From Holophagaceae bacterium (GTDB taxonomy: Bacteria > Acidobacteriota > Holophagae > Holophagales > Holophagaceae): DNA of 51,299 nucleotides. The stretch lies in the NCBI GenBank assembly GCA_003165415.1, contig PLUC01000164.1, positions 5,250-56,548 of the forward strand. Reading direction: 5' to 3'. Positions within the stretch are counted from its first letter, which is position 1. Each line of letters starts with the position of its first letter. The notes below the pieces were generated by a model. That model did not search any database and was not told the DNA's origin. It was given only the letters and a program-made list of their open reading frames with translations. The translations under genes and the position numbers were made by a program. Positions 4,464 through 19,480 of this stretch are shown in pieces.

Positions 4464-7118
4464 TTGAAAACGAACCTGAAATCCCTTATCGGCAAGCTGG
4501 ATCCCTTGTGCCGGAGAGTGCTGGACTCCTCGGCCAATGTGGCCCTGTCCCGGACCCACTACGAGGTGGACCTGGAGCATGTCCTGACCGAGCTCATCGC
4601 CCGGCCCGAATCGGAGGCGGTGGCCTTCCTGCGCCTGAACGGCGTGGACATCCCCAGCCTGGAGAAGGCGCTCCGGGCCGGGCTGGCATCCCTCAAGACC
4701 GGCAACAACCGGAACCCGGTCCTGTCGACCATGATCGTCCGCTGGATCGAGGCCGCCTGGATGCTGGCCACCGTGGACTATGGCGCCAGCCAGCTGCGGA
4801 GCGCCTTCCTGATGCTCGCCCTGGTGCTGGAGGATGAACTCCTCGCCCATCTGGGCAAAGCCGGGGAGATCCTCGGAGCCATCCCCAAGGAGCAGGCGAA
4901 GGCGGGCCTGCTGGAACTCCTGCGCCGAAGCCCCGAGGGCCGCGAGGGCGCCAAGGGCGCCCCCGGGGAGACGCCTTCGCCCGCCGAGATTCCCGGCGCC
5001 GCGCCGGAAGGCGCCTTGGCGAGATTCACCTCCGACCTCACGGCCCTGGCGCGGGCCGGCAAGCTGGACCCGGTCCTGGGGCGGGACCTCGAGATCCGCC
5101 AGATGATGGACATCCTGCTGCGGCGCCGGCAGAACAACCCGATCCTCACCGGCGAGCCGGGTGTGGGCAAGACCGCGGTGGTGGAGGGGCTGGCCCTCAG
5201 AATAGTGGAAGGGGACGTGCCCGAGCCGCTCAAGCCCATCGAGCTCAGGGTGCTGGATCTCGGGCTCCTCCAGGCCGGGGCCAGCGTCAAGGGAGAGTTC
5301 GAGGCGAGGCTGCGAGGGGTCATCGACGAAGTGAAGGCGTCCCTGAAGCCCATCATCCTTTTCATCGACGAGGCCCACACCCTGATCGGCGCGGGCGGCG
5401 CGGCCGGCCAGGGCGACGCCGCCAACCTGCTCAAACCGGCCCTGGCGCGGGGTGAACTGCGCACCATCGCCGCCACCACCTGGTCCGAATACAAGAAGTA
5501 TTTCGAAAAGGACGCCGCGCTCGCCCGGAGATTCCAGGTGGTCAAGGTGGAGGAACCCACCGAGGACCTGGCGGTCCAGATGCTGCGGGGGGTTGTGCCG
5601 CACCTGGAGCGCCACCACAAAGTGCGCATCCAGGCCGCCGGCGTCAAGGCGGCCGTGCACCTCTCAAGCCGGTACATCGCCGGCCGGCAACTCCCCGACA
5701 AGGCCGTGAGCCTGATGGACACGGCCTGCGCCCGGGTGGCCCTGAGCCGGGCCGCCATCCCGGAATCCGTGGAAGCGATCCGCCGGGACCTGGAAGATGT
5801 GGTCCGGGAAAAGCAGGCCCTGGGCCGCGAGGAGGACCCGCGGCCGCATGTCGGCCGGCTGGCGGAGCTCACCGAACGGGAGCGCCAGCTCGAGGGGGAA
5901 CTGAAGGAGATGGAGGAATGCGCCCGGGCTCAGCATGCCCTCATCGACACGGTGGAAGCGGCGGCCAGGGAACTCGCCCAGGCCAGGCTCCAGGGCGGCG
6001 ACCCGGATCGCGCCAAGGCGCTGGAAGAAGCCTGGACGCAGGCCTACGACGCCTATCGCGGGCACTTCTCCGCGCATCCCATGGTGCACCTGGACGTCGA
6101 CGACAAGGTCATCGCTGAAGTGGTGGCCAGCTGGACCGGGATCCCGCTGGGGCGCATGGCCCAGGATGAAATCGCCACCGTGCAGCAGCTCGGGACCGCC
6201 CTGCAGCAACGCGTGGTGGGCCAGGACCACGCCATGGACCGCATCGCCAGGCAGCTCCAGATCGCCTGGGCCGGCATGGAGGATCCCACCAGGCCTCGGG
6301 GCGTGTTCCTGCTCACCGGCCCATCCGGCGTGGGCAAGACCGAGACGGCCCTCGCCCTGGCCGACCTCCTCTACGGCGGAGAGCGCAACCTCGTCACCAT
6401 CAACATGAGCGAATACCAGGAAGCCCACAGCGTCTCGGGCCTCAAAGGCTCTCCGCCGGGCTACGTGGGCTACGGGGAAGGAGGCGTCCTTACCGAAGGA
6501 GTGCGCCGGAAACCCTATTGCGTCGTCCTGCTCGACGAGGTGGAGAAAGCGCATCCGGATGTGCTCGAACTGTTCTACCAGGTGTTCGACAAAGGCATGC
6601 TGGAGGATTCCGAAGGCCGGGCGGTGGATTTCCGCAACACGGTCATCCTGCTCACCTCCAACGTCGGCTCGGAACTCATCCAGAGGGCCATGGAACTCGG
6701 CGTCACCGTCGACGGGGAATCGCGCAAACCCACCGCCGAGGACTTGGCCGAACTGCTGCGCCCGGACCTGGTCAAGGTCTTCAAGCCCGCCTTCCTGGGG
6801 CGCTGCCAGGTGGTCCCCTTCTTCGCCCTGGAGGACGCCGCCCTCAAGCGGGTCATCGGCCTGAAACTGCGGAAGATCCAGCAGCGCTACCGGGCCAATT
6901 TCGGGGCCGAGCTCAGCTATGACGAGGACCTGCTCGAACTGATCCGGGCGCGCTGCACCGAGGCCGAGAGCGGCGCCCGGAACGCCGAGAGCATTCTCGG
7001 CCAGGCCATCCTCGCCCCGCTGTCGGCGGAGGTGCTCGCCCGCATGGCCGAAGGGAAGGCCATCGGGCGCGTGCATATCGCCTTGCGGGATGGGGAAGTG
7101 GATCTCCAGATCACCTGA
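4464..7118 (+). CDS. tssH: T6SS sheath-disassembly AAA+ ATPase TssH (ClpV)
   Basis: 884 residues, the ClpV size. The start is a TTG at 4464 preceded by a GGGGGGT-type ribosome site; no ATG fits the conserved N-terminus (KSLIGKLDPLCRRVLDSSAN). An N-terminal Clp repeat domain is followed by a Pro/Ala-rich linker (about 155-180). Two AAA+ modules follow, with Walker A GEPGVGKT at about residue 230 (Walker B ILFIDEAHT) and GPSGVGKT at about residue 619 (Walker B VVLLDEVEKAHP), separated by a coiled-coil middle domain. ClpV extracts TssB/TssC from contracted sheaths so that subunits are recycled. The T6SS neighbourhood separates it from the chaperone ClpB. Confidence 0.95.
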   Translation: MKTNLKSLIGKLDPLCRRVLDSSANVALSRTHYEVDLEHVLTELIARPESEAVAFLRLNGVDIPSLEKALRAGLASLKTGNNRNPVLSTMIVRWIEAAWMLATVDYGASQLRSAFLMLALVLEDELLAHLGKAGEILGAIPKEQAKAGLLELLRRSPEGREGAKGAPGETPSPAEIPGAAPEGALARFTSDLTALARAGKLDPVLGRDLEIRQMMDILLRRRQNNPILTGEPGVGKTAVVEGLALRIVEGDVPEPLKPIELRVLDLGLLQAGASVKGEFEARLRGVIDEVKASLKPIILFIDEAHTLIGAGGAAGQGDAANLLKPALARGELRTIAATTWSEYKKYFEKDAALARRFQVVKVEEPTEDLAVQMLRGVVPHLERHHKVRIQAAGVKAAVHLSSRYIAGRQLPDKAVSLMDTACARVALSRAAIPESVEAIRRDLEDVVREKQALGREEDPRPHVGRLAELTERERQLEGELKEMEECARAQHALIDTVEAAARELAQARLQGGDPDRAKALEEAWTQAYDAYRGHFSAHPMVHLDVDDKVIAEVVASWTGIPLGRMAQDEIATVQQLGTALQQRVVGQDHAMDRIARQLQIAWAGMEDPTRPRGVFLLTGPSGVGKTETALALADLLYGGERNLVTINMSEYQEAHSVSGLKGSPPGYVGYGEGGVLTEGVRRKPYCVVLLDEVEKAHPDVLELFYQVFDKGMLEDSEGRAVDFRNTVILLTSNVGSELIQRAMELGVTVDGESRKPTAEDLAELLRPDLVKVFKPAFLGRCQVVPFFALEDAALKRVIGLKLRKIQQRYRANFGAELSYDEDLLELIRARCTEAESGARNAESILGQAILAPLSAEVLARMAEGKAIGRVHIALRDGEVDLQIT

Positions 7119-7131
7119 GCTAGGAGCCTTC

Positions 7132-8088
7132 ATGCCCAAGAGTGGTGGGATCGATTGGGTTCTTCTGTTGATCGTGGCGGGCATCCTGGTTTTCATCGGG
7201 ATCTCCATATGGGCGCTGCTGCGGTTCCGCAAATCCAGGAAGGAGACGCCCTCCGCAACCTTTCATGGGACCGTCATGTGGCCCCGGGGGCGCGCCGGCG
7301 GGATGGCCGCCCCGAAGCCCGGCACGCCCCCGCAGGCGCCCGAGCAGCATGAAGGGACCGTGATGTGGCCCAAAGGCCAGGCGGCGCGGGCCGCGTCCAG
7401 GCCTCCGGCCCCGCTCGCCCCGCCGCCACCGGCGCCCGAGCAGCCCGAAGGCACCGTGATGTGGCCCAAGGGCCAGGCGGCGCGGGCCGCGTCCAGGCCT
7501 CCGGCCCCGTTCACCCCGTCCGCCCCGTCCGCCCCGCCCGCCTCGCAGCCACCGGCGCCCGAGGAGGCCGAAGGCACCGTGATGTGGCCCAAAGGCCGGG
7601 CGGCGCGCGCCGCGTCCGGGCCTCCGGCCGCGCCCGTTCCGCCGGCTCCGCTGGCGGAGCCCGAGCGGCAGGGATCCTTTTTCGGCGCCCTCATCCGGAA
7701 ATGCCTCCCCGCCAAGAAGCCCGCCCCGCAGACCTTCTCCGAAACGGTGATGTACCCGCGGGAGCGGGGGGGCCGCACCGCTCCCGAGTCCCGGGCACCT
7801 TCCTTCCAGCCCCCCGCCACCCCGCCCCGGGTGGACCCGGGCGGTCCCGGGACGTTCTCGGCTCCCGCGCCGAAGGAGGATCCCGGCTGGGCCATGCGCC
7901 TCCCTCCCGCCCCGCCGAGGGCGGCCGAGGCGAGCGAGGCCGCGCCCCAGGCGCCGGGCATGACCATCCAGGAGGAGGTCGAGTTCCTGCGCAGGCAGCT
8001 GCGGGAAATGCAGGCCCGGCAGGACGGCTCGACTTCCCAGCCGGCGCCGCCCCAGACTCCCCCCGAGGATCCTCGACGCTTCCCGTGA
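7132..8088 (+). CDS. Single-pass membrane protein with five repeated TVMWP/TVMYP motifs, unknown function
   Basis: 318 residues from the ATG at 7132, which is preceded by TAGGAG; an upstream in-frame start inside tssH is less likely. Residues 9-31 form one transmembrane helix with a basic RFRKSRK stop-transfer, so the long remainder is probably cytoplasmic. The tail is rich in Pro and Ala and carries the motif GTVMWP four times and ETVMYP once, with the threonine at about residues 47, 76, 108, 149 and 205. Most copies are followed by a basic (K/R)G(Q/R) step. A short coiled coil (EEVEFLRRQLREMQARQ) lies near the C-terminus. I do not recognise the family. Its place between tssH and tssM argues for a T6SS role; docking or phospho-threonine signalling is only a hypothesis. 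Confidence 0.75.
   Translation: MPKSGGIDWVLLLIVAGILVFIGISIWALLRFRKSRKETPSATFHGTVMWPRGRAGGMAAPKPGTPPQAPEQHEGTVMWPKGQAARAASRPPAPLAPPPPAPEQPEGTVMWPKGQAARAASRPPAPFTPSAPSAPPASQPPAPEEAEGTVMWPKGRAARAASGPPAAPVPPAPLAEPERQGSFFGALIRKCLPAKKPAPQTFSETVMYPRERGGRTAPESRAPSFQPPATPPRVDPGGPGTFSAPAPKEDPGWAMRLPPAPPRAAEASEAAPQAPGMTIQEEVEFLRRQLREMQARQDGSTSQPAPPQTPPEDPRRFP
7267..7758 (+). repeat. Degenerate in-frame repeats encoding the TVMWP motif
   Basis: Five copies of a unit centred on ACCGTGATGTGGCCC-like DNA lie at roughly 7267, 7354, 7450, 7573 and 7741. The second and third copies continue with nearly identical DNA for about 60 bases; the fourth is slightly diverged and the first and fifth more so. Distances are irregular (29, 32, 41 and 56 codons), so this is not a simple tandem array. 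The motif is conserved while the Pro/Ala linkers vary, which suggests selection on the motif. Confidence 0.75.
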
Positions 8089-8269: not shown

Positions 8270-11200
8270 ATGTCAAAGCCTTGGTACAAGAGTTCCCTGA
8301 TCTACTTCATCCTGGTCTGGATCATCGCCCTGGCCGTGATCTGGCTCCTGGGGCCGTGGCTGGGAATGACGGGCCTGTTCGCGAGGATCGCCTGGACCGC
8401 CATGCTGACGGTGGTCCTCGGGCTGATCATCTTCATCTTCCGGATGATGGCCGCCCGGAACGCCACGGGCTTCGAGGAAAGCATCCGCAAGGACGCAGAC
8501 AAGGCCATGGTGTCGGCGTCCCCCGACCTGCGGGCCGAGGTGGCCATCCTGCGCCAAGGGTTCCTGACCGCCCTCGACACCCTCAAGCAGTCCAGGGTCG
8601 GGAAGGCCAGCGGCCGGGAGGCTCTGTATGAACTCCCGTGGTACCTGGTGATCGGGGCTCCTTCGGCCGGGAAGACGACCGCCATCCTGCGTTCGGGCCT
8701 GTCCTTTCCCCTCGCCGCCAGGGGCAAGCCCATGGTCCAGGGGGTGGGCGGGACCAAGAACTGCGACTGGTTCTTCACCACCGAAGGGGTGCTGCTGGAC
8801 ACGGCCGGACGCTACGCCACGGAAACCGACGACCTGCCGGAGTGGCGGGAATTCATCAAGCTGCTGTACAAGTTCCGGCCCCAGGCCCCGCTCAACGGCC
8901 TGATCGTCACCGTCAGTGTCACCGAACTGCTGAATTACAATACCCCCGCCTTCGAAACCTACGCCAGGCAGATCCGTCAGCGGCTGAACCAGCTCGAGGC
9001 GGAGTTCAAGGTGAAGGTGCCGGTCTTCCTGATGGTCACCAAGATGGACCTGGTGCCCGGATTCTCGGACTTCTTCGAGCCCATGACGGATGAAGAGCGC
9101 AACCAGACCTGGGGCGCCATCATGAACCACCGGCAGTTCGCCGAAGGGTTCCAGCTTCCGGAAGTGCTCGGACAACACCTGGACCTCCTCTGGGAAGGCC
9201 TGGTGCAGATTGGCCAGGACCGGATGCTGACCCATCCCAACCGGAGCGACCGTGCCGCCTTCCAGCTGTTCCCCGCCGAATTCCGGGCCCTGAAGACCGC
9301 CATCTGCGCCTTCGTCGAAGTGCTGGTGGAGAAGGATCCCTATCATTACCGCCCCCTCATCCGCGGGCTGCACTTCAGCAGCGCCCTGCGGGAAGGCGGC
9401 CCGGCCTGGATGCTGGGGCAGGAGGTCGCGACGGCGTTCGCGCTGAACGGCAAGGGGGTGCCGCCGCAGGCCCCTCCGGGCCAGCGCAGCCATTTCATCC
9501 AGGGCTTCTTCCGCTCCAGCCTGTTCCCGGACCAGTCCCTGATCGTCCGGCAGGTCTCGGGAACCCACAGCCCCGCCCGCACGCTCCAGTTGGCCGCCGG
9601 CCTGGCGGTCGTGCTGGTCTTCATGTCCCTCTTCACATACTCCTGCGCCCGCAACCGGGGCCTGATCAACGGGGCCCTGGACGGCAGCGCCACGGCCGCG
9701 TCCTTCGCCCAGCGCGAGGGGCTGGAGAACCAGCTCCGCTCGGCGCTTGCGCTCCAGCTGAGCCTGGCGCCGCTCACGGCCAACCGGCTCGGCCACCCGC
9801 CGCTTTCCCACCGCTGGGGGCTGTACGTGGGCAACGACCTGGAAGCCGCCCTTCGCGCCGCCTATTACCGGAAGATGAGCACCCTGCTGCTCGCCCCGGT
9901 CAAGGCCAGCCTTGAGAGCACCCTGCGGGCCGGCTTGAATACGGCCGCGGCGGCCCCTCCCGCGCCGTCACCCGCACCGGCGCGTCTCCCCCAGGCCAAG
10001 AAGCGGGGCGCGAAGCAGGTGGTCACGGCCGCCCCGCCGCCACCGCCTCCCTCCGCGCCGCCGCCGGGCCTGTACAATGCCCTGAAGCTCTACAAAATGC
10101 TGGCGGACCGGAGCCACATGGACGCCGACGAGCTCGCGCACCAGCTCCCGGTCTATTGGAAGCCGTCGCTGGCCACCGACTCCAATGCCATCCCGCCGGC
10201 GATCCAGCAATTGTCCGGCGAGCTGGTGGCCGGGTTCGCGGAACGCTGCAAGGATCCCGACTACCCGACCATCACCATCGATGAAACGCTCGCCCAGTCC
10301 GTCTGCGTCAAGCTGGCGGGAGAAAGGCAGGCCCTGGACCCCCTCCAGCGGGCCTATGCCGACCTCAAGGCGGCCGCGTCCGCGAAGTCCCCCGATCTGA
10401 CCGCGAAGAGCATCCTGGCCGACGATCCGTCCGACCTGGTGAAGGGCGCCAGCCAGCTGCCCGGCTGCTTCACGCTGGAGGGCTGGAGCACCTTCCAGGA
10501 GAACCTGGAGAAAGCGCTGGACGGCACCCTGGTGAGCCAGGACTGGGTGCTCTCCTGCGGTTCGGGGAGCACGGCCACCATGGAAGGCGGCCGCGACGCC
10601 AACCGGGAGCGCCTGACCACGCTCTACAAGGCCGAATTCGACCAGCAGTGGCAGAAATTCCTGGGCGGGATGCAGATCGCCGAATCCCGGGACGTCAAGG
10701 GCGCGGCCGATGCCCTGGGGCGCCTTTCCGACACCCGGCATTCCCCCATCCGGCTGATCCTGCTGCGGGCCGTGAAGGAGACCTACATCGACAAGCCGAG
10801 CCTGGTGAAATCCTGGCTGAACAAGGGGATCGACAAGGGCAAGAAGCTCGTGAACGCCAACAGTGAGGCCGAGGACAAGAACGAGGATCCGAACCGTCCC
10901 GGCCACCGGTTCCCGGGATTGGCCAAGCTCATGGCTTCGTCGGGGGGTGCCCCCTCGCTCCTGGACGGCTACTTCAGCGCGCTCAAGAAGGCCAAGGAAC
11001 GGCTTGATGCCAGCCAGGGGGACAGCCAGCAGAAATCCCTGGTCCAGAGCACCATGTCCGGTTCCGGCTCCCCGCTCGCCGAGGCCAGGGAGTATGTGGA
11101 CGGGACGCTGCTGCCCCAGCTCGAGGAGCCGTCCCGGAGCATGGTGCGGCCCATGCTGGTCGGCCCGCTGGAAAAGAGCATGGCCACTGCCCTGCAGGGC

Positions 11201-11944
11201 GCCGCCCGGGACCTGAATTCGCTCTGGGGCAGCAAGGTCATGCCGCCCTGGAAGGACCTCGCGAGCAAATACCCGTTCTCGGATAGCACCAATGACGCGA
11301 CCTTCGCGGACATCCAGCGGTTCCTGAGGCCGGACGGCCCCCTGGCCGATTTCATGGACAAGGATCTGGCCGGCCTGGTAGAGAAACAGAACGGCCACTA
11401 CGCGCCCCTCCCGGGAGCGCAGAACGTGCACTTCAGCGGCCGGTTCCTGGCCACCGTCAACCAGCTGATGGTGGCCGCCGAGGCGGCCTTGCGCGGAGGC
11501 GAGGGCTCCATCTTCGAACTGCGGCCGAACCCGATCCCCGGGATCTCGGAAACCGACTTCGTCCTGGATGGGCAGAAGCTCGTCTACCGGAACCAGCAGG
11601 AGGAATGGAAACAGTTCACCTGGCCGGGCCCGGGGAGTCCGGAGGCCACGGTGCAGGTGGTTTCCAACAGCGGGGTCGCGCCCCAGATCCTCAAGTTCCC
11701 GGGACGGATGGGCCTGCTCCGGATGCTGGAGAAGCGCGAAGAGAAGCCGTCGTCCTTCGGGACCGAACTCGCCTGGAAGTTCTCCGTGCCCCGGAATTTC
11801 AAGGGAGCCCCCCTGAAGGAGACCGGAGACCTCACGGAATATCCCTTTCCTTTCCGCCTCAACTTCCGGAGCGTATCGGGCAGCGACCCGAGACTGCTGC
11901 TTAAGCTGAGGAGGCTGCAGCTTCCGGACCGCATCACCCAGTAG
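8270..11944 (+). CDS. tssM: T6SS inner-membrane complex protein TssM (IcmF/VasK)
   Basis: 1224 residues, normal for TssM. Two N-terminal transmembrane helices (about residues 10-28 and 36-60) are followed by a cytoplasmic NTPase-like domain with Walker A GAPSAGKTT at about residue 129 and a DTAGRYA motif, then a third transmembrane segment near residues 440-460. The rest is the periplasmic IcmF-related and VasK regions, interrupted by Pro-rich low-complexity sequence around residues 560-600. TssM is the trans-envelope pillar contacting TssL in the inner membrane and TssJ at the outer membrane. The intact P-loop suggests nucleotide binding, which not all TssM proteins keep. The start ATG is clear. 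Confidence 0.95.
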   Translation: MSKPWYKSSLIYFILVWIIALAVIWLLGPWLGMTGLFARIAWTAMLTVVLGLIIFIFRMMAARNATGFEESIRKDADKAMVSASPDLRAEVAILRQGFLTALDTLKQSRVGKASGREALYELPWYLVIGAPSAGKTTAILRSGLSFPLAARGKPMVQGVGGTKNCDWFFTTEGVLLDTAGRYATETDDLPEWREFIKLLYKFRPQAPLNGLIVTVSVTELLNYNTPAFETYARQIRQRLNQLEAEFKVKVPVFLMVTKMDLVPGFSDFFEPMTDEERNQTWGAIMNHRQFAEGFQLPEVLGQHLDLLWEGLVQIGQDRMLTHPNRSDRAAFQLFPAEFRALKTAICAFVEVLVEKDPYHYRPLIRGLHFSSALREGGPAWMLGQEVATAFALNGKGVPPQAPPGQRSHFIQGFFRSSLFPDQSLIVRQVSGTHSPARTLQLAAGLAVVLVFMSLFTYSCARNRGLINGALDGSATAASFAQREGLENQLRSALALQLSLAPLTANRLGHPPLSHRWGLYVGNDLEAALRAAYYRKMSTLLLAPVKASLESTLRAGLNTAAAAPPAPSPAPARLPQAKKRGAKQVVTAAPPPPPPSAPPPGLYNALKLYKMLADRSHMDADELAHQLPVYWKPSLATDSNAIPPAIQQLSGELVAGFAERCKDPDYPTITIDETLAQSVCVKLAGERQALDPLQRAYADLKAAASAKSPDLTAKSILADDPSDLVKGASQLPGCFTLEGWSTFQENLEKALDGTLVSQDWVLSCGSGSTATMEGGRDANRERLTTLYKAEFDQQWQKFLGGMQIAESRDVKGAADALGRLSDTRHSPIRLILLRAVKETYIDKPSLVKSWLNKGIDKGKKLVNANSEAEDKNEDPNRPGHRFPGLAKLMASSGGAPSLLDGYFSALKKAKERLDASQGDSQQKSLVQSTMSGSGSPLAEAREYVDGTLLPQLEEPSRSMVRPMLVGPLEKSMATALQGAARDLNSLWGSKVMPPWKDLASKYPFSDSTNDATFADIQRFLRPDGPLADFMDKDLAGLVEKQNGHYAPLPGAQNVHFSGRFLATVNQLMVAAEAALRGGEGSIFELRPNPIPGISETDFVLDGQKLVYRNQQEEWKQFTWPGPGSPEATVQVVSNSGVAPQILKFPGRMGLLRMLEKREEKPSSFGTELAWKFSVPRNFKGAPLKETGDLTEYPFPFRLNFRSVSGSDPRLLLKLRRLQLPDRITQ

Positions 11945-11951
11945 GCGAGCC

Positions 11952-12986
11952 ATGCTGTTCTCCCGCTCCGCAGGCAAGTCCAAGCGAGCTTTCACCATCT
12001 TCGGGAAGGTGCCGAGCATGACGGATTTCTTGGCCGTCCAGGCATCCCACCCGACGGTGAAGGACCTGGACCGCCTGATCCAGGGCGTGATGACGGTCAT
12101 GGCCGGAAACCATGAATGGAAGCAACATTTTGATGCCATCCCAGCCATCGATCTCCTGTGGCAGTCTCCCACCGGCCCGGAAGTCTTCGTCGGCGTGCTC
12201 CTGCCCAGCCATGACGCCGCGGGCCGGCGCTACCCCCTCCTGGGCGGCCTGGTGCTGCCGGGGGGCGAGGCCGCCCGGTATGGCCCCCTCCTGCTGCTGG
12301 GGGCCGAACTGCTCTGCTCCCGTCTGCGGAACCTGCTCCTCCGGGCCCGGGAGGATCCGGCAGGACTGCCCGAACTGCGGGACTACCTGGCGGACCAGGC
12401 GTCGGACAAGGGAATGGACCTGCTCGAACCGGATCTGCTGGGAGAGATTTACAATAAATTTATAAATGAAGAAGCAGTGCTCGAACTGGGTCGGGCCGTC
12501 AGCGAGACCTCTCCCGCCACCGCCTTGAGGAGGACGGTCCTGCACCTGCTCTTTTCCCGCGGGCAGGGCCCGGAGGGAAGGGAGGAGGAGAAGAAATTCC
12601 TCGTCCTCCCCCTCAGCCTGGAGCCGGGCAGATCCATGCTCCATGCCAGTGTTTGGATGGACCTCCTGGCCCTCCTGGTGGACTCCTCCTCCCAGTGCCC
12701 CTGGGGGCAGAATGCCCTGCTCCACCCGATGGATGGCGCCCCCTGCCTGTTCATGCACCCGGGCCGTCCCTCCGCCCTGGCCGGCGCCGCCATGCTGGGC
12801 GGCAAACGGCTGCAATGGAATAACTTAAATCTGCAGTCGGGGACCGGCGCGCTGCACCTCCACCCCCTTTATCCCGAGATTTCCATCCAGCTCGATAGAT
12901 TTCTCACCAGTCCAACGTATAAGATGGTGGACTTGAAGCGATATGTTGGTGAAACTGTCCGTCAGCTGCTCCTCTCTAGTTCCTGA
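11952..12986 (+). CDS. tagF: TagF/ImpM family T6SS accessory protein
   Basis: 344 residues, beginning seven bases after tssM. Residues 12-160 match the TagF (DUF2094/ImpM) domain: FTIFGKVPSMTDFLAV, then DAIPAIDLLWQSP, EVFVGVLLPSHDAAGRRYPL. The C-terminal half is less conserved. In Pseudomonas, TagF is a post-translational brake on T6SS assembly acting with the Thr kinase PpkA, phosphatase PppA and FHA protein Fha. None of those three is in this window, so whether that route exists here is open. A short A+T-rich patch near 12450-12475 stands out but does not break the frame. Confidence 0.88.
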   Translation: MLFSRSAGKSKRAFTIFGKVPSMTDFLAVQASHPTVKDLDRLIQGVMTVMAGNHEWKQHFDAIPAIDLLWQSPTGPEVFVGVLLPSHDAAGRRYPLLGGLVLPGGEAARYGPLLLLGAELLCSRLRNLLLRAREDPAGLPELRDYLADQASDKGMDLLEPDLLGEIYNKFINEEAVLELGRAVSETSPATALRRTVLHLLFSRGQGPEGREEEKKFLVLPLSLEPGRSMLHASVWMDLLALLVDSSSQCPWGQNALLHPMDGAPCLFMHPGRPSALAGAAMLGGKRLQWNNLNLQSGTGALHLHPLYPEISIQLDRFLTSPTYKMVDLKRYVGETVRQLLLSSS

Positions 12987-17750: not shown

Positions 17751-19046
17751 GTGGACGTCATCAACCGCACCGCCTTTCCCGCCCTGGCCTTCGAAGGGCT
17801 CGACACCCAGGATCAGCCCTTCCATGTGCTGGTGATGCGCATCACCTACGTCCTGCGTCCGGGAGCAGGCGCCGGACAATGCACCCACCACCTCGACTTC
17901 GCCGACGACCAGGCGCCCCTTGCCGCCACCGACAGTTTCCTGGGCGACCCGGCCTTGACCAGTCCCCGTGGCGAAAGCGACTACGCACCCTTCAAGCCCA
18001 GATGCGACGTGCTCGTCCTGGGCCATGCCCATGCTCCCCGCGGCAGGCCCTGCCGGCGCTTCACCGCCTCCCTGAAGCTCCTGCGTCCAGGCCCGGCCGG
18101 GCAGGCGCTGCTGGATGCCAGCCTGGGCATCGTCGGGCCTCGCTGGTTCCGGAAGAAACGCTGGCCCCTGCGCTGGATCTACGGCCTGCTCCGGTTCGGG
18201 AGCCTCGGCCTGGTCCGCGTCAACCCCTGGACCCTGACCGCGCCCGCCGCCATCGGCTCCGTGCCGCTGACCTACGAATTCGCTTTTGGGGGCACGCTGA
18301 CCATTCCCGTGGAGGCGATGTCGAGGGTGCCCAAGAAGTTCCGGCTCCCGCCCGAGCGGCAGCAGGACCTGGGGCAACCCGCAGCCGCCTATGCCCGCAA
18401 CGAAGCCAACCCCATCGGCATGGGCCACGCCACCCTGTGGGCCCTCCAGGCCGGCCGGGTCAAGCGCCTGCCCGCGCCCCAGATCGAAGCTCCCGGCCGG
18501 CCCGTCACTTCCGCCTATTTCTGGCAGAACGCCCGCGGCAAGATCAAGCCCGGCAAGGAACTCACGCCGGCGGGCTGCGGCCCCCTCGGCCGGGGATGGT
18601 CTCCGCGCCGGCTGCTGGCGGGCACTCCGGACGCCGCCTGGGTGCGGGAGCGCCATCCCCTCCTGCCCAGGGACTTCGACTTCGGCTACTGGAACTGCGC
18701 CCATCCCCAGTGGCAGACGGAGCACCTGCGGGGCGACGAGGTGCTGACCCTCACCAACCTGCTGCCCGCCGATGCGCGTTCGGCCGTCCAGGATGCCCAG
18801 GGGAACACCCTGGCCCGGTTCGCCCTGCCCGGGCACCAGCCTTTCGCCCTGGTCCGCTACCCGGATGGACGCACGGCCTCCGTGGCCTTGATGACGGACA
18901 CGCTGATCCTGGATCTCGAATCCGGATCCGTGACCCAGGTGGCGCGGGCGCGCCTCCCTAAGGCGGAGCCCATCCAGGGACTGGAGTTCCGCATGGAAGT
19001 GAACCCGTCCGCCCTGGCCGCCGCCCGGGAGGCCGGCCGCCCATGA
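17751..19046 (+). CDS. DUF2169 T6SS adaptor/chaperone-like protein
   Basis: 431 residues from a GTG at 17751, 11 bp after vgrG; no suitable ATG lies nearby. The N-terminus has NRTAFPALAFEGLDTQDQPF and VLVMRITYVL, matching DUF2169, followed by SDYAPFKPRCDVLVLGHAHA and LTYEFAFGGTL. A further DFDFGYWNCAHPQWQ segment is typical. DUF2169 proteins are commonly found between vgrG and PAAR/effector genes and are thought to help load effectors onto the spike. The gene overlaps the next by four bases (ATGA). No effector gene follows, which is unusual for such an adaptor. Confidence 0.85.
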   Translation: MDVINRTAFPALAFEGLDTQDQPFHVLVMRITYVLRPGAGAGQCTHHLDFADDQAPLAATDSFLGDPALTSPRGESDYAPFKPRCDVLVLGHAHAPRGRPCRRFTASLKLLRPGPAGQALLDASLGIVGPRWFRKKRWPLRWIYGLLRFGSLGLVRVNPWTLTAPAAIGSVPLTYEFAFGGTLTIPVEAMSRVPKKFRLPPERQQDLGQPAAAYARNEANPIGMGHATLWALQAGRVKRLPAPQIEAPGRPVTSAYFWQNARGKIKPGKELTPAGCGPLGRGWSPRRLLAGTPDAAWVRERHPLLPRDFDFGYWNCAHPQWQTEHLRGDEVLTLTNLLPADARSAVQDAQGNTLARFALPGHQPFALVRYPDGRTASVALMTDTLILDLESGSVTQVARARLPKAEPIQGLEFRMEVNPSALAAAREAGRP

Positions 19047-19480
19047 GCCCCAACTTCGTCAACGTCATGGGTGTGGACGGCATGCAGGCCGTGTCCACCG
19101 TTCCCAGTTTCAACAAGACCCCGGGTCCCGGCACCCCGCCGCTGCCCTATCCCGTGACCAACAGCCTGGAAAGCCGCCAGGGGACGGTCGCCACCGTCGT
19201 CTTCTCCGGTGCCCAGGCTTTCGTATTGGGCCAGAGCAACGTGCCCACCTGCATGGGCGACATGGCGGGCGCCCTGGGGGGCGTGGTGTCGGGCACGGTG
19301 GGCGGCAAGATCGAAGCCATTCAAGGCAGTCCCAACGTGCTCGCCGGGGGGAACCCCATGGTGCGTTCCGGGGACCCCTGCACCCTCCAGGGCGGCAACA
19401 CCATCGGCATCTTCGTTCCCATACCCGGGACGCCCGTCATCATCCAGGGCGGGGTGCCGAGCGGCTCGATGAATCCCTGA
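19043..19480 (+). CDS. DUF4150 PAAR-like spike tip protein
   Basis: 145 residues. It opens SPNFVNVMGVDGMQAVSTVP and includes FNKTPGPGTPPLPYPVTNS, CMGDMAGALGGVVSG and an IPGTPVIIQGGVPSGSMNP end. This is the DUF4150 variant of the PAAR fold, in which short beta hairpins form a pointed tip on VgrG. It ends without any toxin domain. It is the last gene of the T6SS plus-strand run, with the palindromic terminator five bases beyond its stop codon. Confidence 0.9.
   Translation: MSPNFVNVMGVDGMQAVSTVPSFNKTPGPGTPPLPYPVTNSLESRQGTVATVVFSGAQAFVLGQSNVPTCMGDMAGALGGVVSGTVGGKIEAIQGSPNVLAGGNPMVRSGDPCTLQGGNTIGIFVPIPGTPVIIQGGVPSGSMNP

Follow-up and report, generated by a model that had tools for sequence, protein, structure and literature searches.

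A predicted membrane-anchored protein with five TVM[WY]P motifs encoded between tssH and tssM in a Holophagaceae T6SS cluster

What does the gene wedged between tssH and tssM in the T6SS cluster of a Holophagaceae bacterium encode, and are the threonines of its repeated motif likely to be phosphorylated docking sites? T6SS assembly is known to be controlled after translation by TagF and by phosphorylation of Fha or TssL. The gene, here called X, comes from a 4.84-Mb draft genome (273 contigs, 94% complete); the window, by which we mean the whole stretch of 51,299 nucleotides that was analysed, is contig C149:5250-56548 (PLUC01000164.1), and the coordinates of X are counted within it. A sequence-only reading had described a 318-residue ORF with a single N-terminal transmembrane helix, four copies of GTVMWP and one of ETVMYP at uneven spacing, placed between tssH and tssM with tagF downstream; the translation agrees with this description and Pfam identifies the neighbours as named (Table 1). 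The products that Pfam names around X are TssF, TssG, TssA, TssH, TssM, TagF, TssB, a DUF2169 protein and TssJ, and TssK, TssL and TssE are encoded just upstream of the window. X itself has no match in Pfam, NCBIfam or the PDB.

Table 1. Coordinates of gene X, its parts and its neighbours (window positions, except where the contig is given)
Feature	Position	Strand	Remarks
tssL, true TssL of the cluster	C149:4494-5213		Upstream of the window
tssH (ClpV ATPase)	4464..7118	+	Pfam
Gene X	7132..8088	+	318 aa, translated ORF; N-terminal transmembrane helix, disordered five-motif tail, C-terminal helix (predicted)
Transmembrane helix, residues 7-31	7150..7224	+	Sequence; AlphaFold helix 6-36, pLDDT about 95
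Motif 1, TVMWP	7270..7284	+	Thr = T47
Tandem duplication of motif units 2-4	7335..7629	+	96-bp and 123-bp periods, 90-92% DNA matches
Motif 2, TVMWP	7357..7371	+	Thr = T76
Motif 3, TVMWP	7453..7467	+	Thr = T108
Motif 4, TVMWP	7576..7590	+	Thr = T149
Short helix FFGALIRKC, between motifs 4 and 5	7678..7704	+	AlphaFold helix 183-191, low confidence
Motif 5, TVMYP	7744..7758	+	Thr = T205, ETVMYP context
C-terminal helix IQEEVEFLRRQLREMQARQD	7966..8025	+	AlphaFold helix 279-298, pLDDT about 93
tssM (IcmF)	8270..11944	+	Pfam
tagF	11952..12986	+	Pfam

X reads as a real gene, since its GC content by codon position is 72/66/87%, with a third-position value that matches those of tssH and tssM, since a ribosome site (AGGAG, 7122-7126) lies 5 nt ahead of the ATG, and since the start codon is 13 nt past the tssH stop. 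Antisense and out-of-frame ORFs across the same stretch were considered and set aside, their codon-position GC being less gene-like than that of X.

The AlphaFold model of X contains the transmembrane helix, a weak short helix and the C-terminal helix, and no other structure; it was computed without an alignment, and the disorder that it predicts may partly come from missing information. The end of the transmembrane helix together with the next residues reads RFRKSRKE, so that by the positive-inside rule the tail should be cytoplasmic. Pro and Ala make up 20% and 16% of the whole protein, respectively. Within the tail (residues 37-278), the 25 motif residues hold 15 of the 34 hydrophobic residues and five of the six Trp/Tyr. 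The short helix is hydrophobic plus basic, and may possibly contact the membrane. In the C-terminal helix, I279, V283, L286, L290 and M293 follow one another at 4-3-4-3 spacing as read from the sequence, and for this reason the helix is likely to be a short coiled coil. All of this anatomy fits the membrane-anchored, multivalent tail that the sequence-only reading had proposed, on what is presumably the cytoplasmic side.

The number of motifs in X is far above chance. The DNA pattern ACNGTNATGTRBCC has six matches in the 4.84-Mb genome, five of which lie inside gene X, while its reversed control has none in the same genome; 20,000 composition shuffles of X gave at most one motif each. Motifs 1-4 share the context GTVMWP, and successive motifs are spaced 29, 32, 41 and 56 residues apart. 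The likeness of units 2-4 is due to recent tandem duplication of the DNA: within these direct repeats, conservation is no lower behind the core than in it, and therefore only three units (1, 3 and 5) are independent. Among these three, nonsynonymous codon differences number 2/15 in the core vs 26/36 in the next 12 codons, for which Fisher's test gives p=1.5e-4, a value biased by the core having been chosen for being conserved. With this selection in mind, the comparison supports constraint on the motif core across units 1, 3 and 5. Within the motif, the Thr is conserved no better than the Val, Met and Pro. The earlier description of a conserved motif set against drifting linkers thus holds for the independent units, but not for the duplicated ones.

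We found no homologue of X in 77 genomes of the family or in genome_contigs, and nothing above chance-level matches in plasmids, viral contigs, PHROGs and the PDB. A profile of the motif unit, run over 396 genomes of the phylum, returned no second protein with several strong matches. On present data X thus appears to be an orphan, found in one genome only. It might accordingly be a lineage-specific, fast-evolving protein of low complexity, whose repeats arose mainly from DNA duplication and which has either no essential role or one unrelated to T6SS. Its single occurrence, its richness in Pro and Ala and the recent origin of units 2-4 are in keeping with this, but units 1 and 5 have undergone synonymous change and yet keep the core, the gene sits between tssH and tssM with a ribosome site of its own, and a transmembrane helix and a C-terminal helix are both predicted; we consider this explanation rather unlikely.

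The cluster as a whole occupies about 22.8 kb between rbfA and truB (contig C149:2946-25758, in the window to about 20500). Five congeners were searched, and in every one of them rbfA lies next to truB, at a distance of a few to about 36 nt; TssM has no match in four of the five, and a distant one only in the fifth (G067). TruB of the contig bearing X is 74-78% identical to its counterparts in congeners, and therefore the contig belongs to the genus and does not come from a foreign contaminant. Together with X, the cluster is either an acquired island or one that was lost from the congeners. A run of N, an assembly gap, lies at about 5150-5250 of the contig (L009), immediately ahead of the window and close to where tssE begins, and because of it tssE is not readable whole. 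Downstream of vgrG, the DUF2169 gene is followed by a Tox-PAAR-like gene (window 19043-19480), in whose short product no separate effector domain was identified.

From these observations, we hypothesize that X is a T6SS-linked, membrane-tethered, probably oligomeric, disordered scaffold carrying multiple short motifs, a proposal that we find as easy to accept as to doubt. X has a tail that is predicted to be disordered and in which one conserved short motif recurs several times, as it should in a scaffold of this kind. Each TVM[WY]P core would dock one cytoplasmic partner weakly, the C-terminal helix would form oligomers and so multiply the motifs per complex, and the motifs would jointly hold or concentrate the partner at the TssJLM membrane complex. 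Among the T6SS components encoded nearby, TssH, TssA, the baseplate or TagF would be the most likely putative partner. A useful copy number would account for cores that were kept while their flanks changed, and for the recent duplication that added further units. The tight spacing to tssH, the ribosome site and the presence of accessory genes in the corresponding slot of related clusters support the scaffold reading; that no homologue of X was found in the searches above, and that only three motif units are independent, speak against it.

A narrower proposal names the partner: X would be a membrane tether for TssH/ClpV, whose N-domain would bind the cores, so that this ATPase, which recycles the sheath, stays close to the base of the machine. 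The 13-nt gap between tssH and X, the separate ribosome site of X and the nature of the motif, a short hydrophobic/aromatic peptide, would suit such a tether; however, the cluster of a sister genus has tssH elsewhere, on the opposite strand, and has no X, and we regard the proposal as very doubtful.

The slot directly before tssM is variable among relatives. TssM proteins about 35-40% identical to that of the present cluster occur in two Holophagaceae genomes and in Betaproteobacteria, for example Chromobacterium, Iodobacter, Andreprevotia and Azoarcus. In most of the related clusters, the gene directly ahead of tssM encodes an M15_4-type peptidase (Pfam was run on one of these proteins) with an N-terminal transmembrane helix and a linker. 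In five loci of Azoarcus/betaproteobacterial MAGs (L112, L115, L116, L118 and L120) the gene at this position reads as one for a Ser/Thr kinase, assigned by Pfam (PF00069) in two of them, some of the genes being truncated or at a contig end; a pattern scan of the fetched stretches revealed no FHA gene near these kinases. In the present cluster the slot holds X. An M15_4 peptidase, a Ser/Thr kinase or X is encoded here depending on the cluster, so that accessory genes appear to be swapped in and out at this slot. We also considered X as a decayed TagX-like M15_4 peptidase and rejected this, its N-terminal profile score being no better than those of shuffles. X has no Pfam peptidase domain and one transmembrane helix where two would be expected, and its genome has no M15_4 match.

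The sequence-only reading had further proposed that a Ser/Thr kinase phosphorylates each motif Thr and that an FHA protein reads it, making a multivalent switch for T6SS assembly. The Thr is kept in all five motifs of X. A genome without any Thr kinase or FHA gene would have told against the proposal, but 17 Ser/Thr kinases above cut-off and 8 FHA proteins are encoded; all of these matches are on other contigs, and the T6SS cluster itself has neither a kinase nor an FHA gene, nor a PppA-type phosphatase among its genes named by Pfam. The Ser/Thr kinases that Azoarcus MAGs of this TssM clade encode ahead of tssM speak for a link to phosphorylation, and so does A. tumefaciens TssL, whose phosphorylated site DLP-pT-VVEI is bound by Fha (PMC3953482) and shares T-V-hydrophobic with the motif of X. 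Against this, the genome has no T6SS-type Fha (TIGR03354) above cut-off, the best score being 46.7 bits vs a cut-off of 120 in an assembly in which, at 94% completeness, a gap is possible, and the Val, Met and Pro of the motif are as invariant as its Thr. We found nothing relevant in the literature on multivalent FHA docking in T6SS. The presence of tagF had been read as a marker of the Thr-phosphorylation pathway. This argument fails because in Chromobacterium and Aquitalea, close relatives whose clusters share the TssM clade of the present one, tagF lies beside tssM in genomes in which no FHA match was found; likewise, C. violaceum has TagF while the Thr-phosphorylation pathway is seemingly absent (PMC9430734). 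We find no positive support for the motif Thr as kinase targets that recruit FHA proteins, and we judge this version of X to be possible and unlikely.

A second place at which phosphorylated threonines may matter is a locus (L011:6541-9968; L186-L215) in which two FHA-GGDEF genes are followed by a Ser/Thr kinase gene, an order conserved across the family. The upstream FHA-GGDEF protein keeps one Thr, in a PTV/PTL context, in an otherwise variable N-terminal tail, and this conserved Thr is likely to be a kinase site. That FHA-GGDEF proteins of the family retain such an N-terminal Thr lends some weight to phosphorylation in X as well, but their motif is PTV/PTL, which differs from TVM[WY]P, and in relatives the neighbouring kinase does not keep the TVLLP with which it starts here. 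We considered a phospho-motif common to X and this locus (TVIIP, TVLLP), and rejected it on the family consensus and the unconserved Thr of the kinase.

X is not TssL/DotU, as it has no DotU domain and no Pfam match. A TVxxP motif at the TssL N-terminus was another candidate, discarded as it is absent from the TssL of relatives. In the TssL of the cluster itself, DTGTVLQQEG stands close to the N-terminus, with GTV in common with the motif of X; the TssL proteins of relatives are without it, and we note it as a weak lead.

Taking the scaffold reading further, X might be a new T6SS control element, in which a dedicated, membrane-anchored tail gathers many copies of a cytoplasmic partner at the site of injection through five TVM[WY]P sites, or more if it oligomerises, perhaps under the control of the cell's general Ser/Thr kinases and FHA proteins instead of a PpkA/Fha pair of its own; we think it quite improbable that all of this is right. 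A multivalent tail whose gene lies within the cluster would determine, in another way than the known controls, how many partners gather per machine, and the gene is small and easily mutated. X also marks the slot directly before tssM as an apparent place of exchange for accessory or control genes.

One of the closest known systems is the N-terminal phospho-Thr site of TssL in the PpkA-TssL-Fha pathway of A. tumefaciens (PMC3953482), in which TssL, like X, is a single-transmembrane T6SS membrane protein with a cytoplasmic Thr-Val-hydrophobic sequence. Unlike X, that TssL is a DotU-domain protein with one site, and PpkA and Fha belong to its pathway; X is not a DotU protein, has five sites in which W/Y and P follow, and lies in a cluster without PpkA or Fha genes. 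By position, the counterparts of X are the TagX-like M15_4 (VanY-like) peptidase, which shares the slot before tssM and the N-terminal transmembrane helix followed by a linker but adds a second transmembrane helix and a peptidase domain that X lacks, and the Azoarcus MAG Ser/Thr kinase, which occupies the same slot in the same TssM clade but is a PF00069 enzyme with no domain in common with X.
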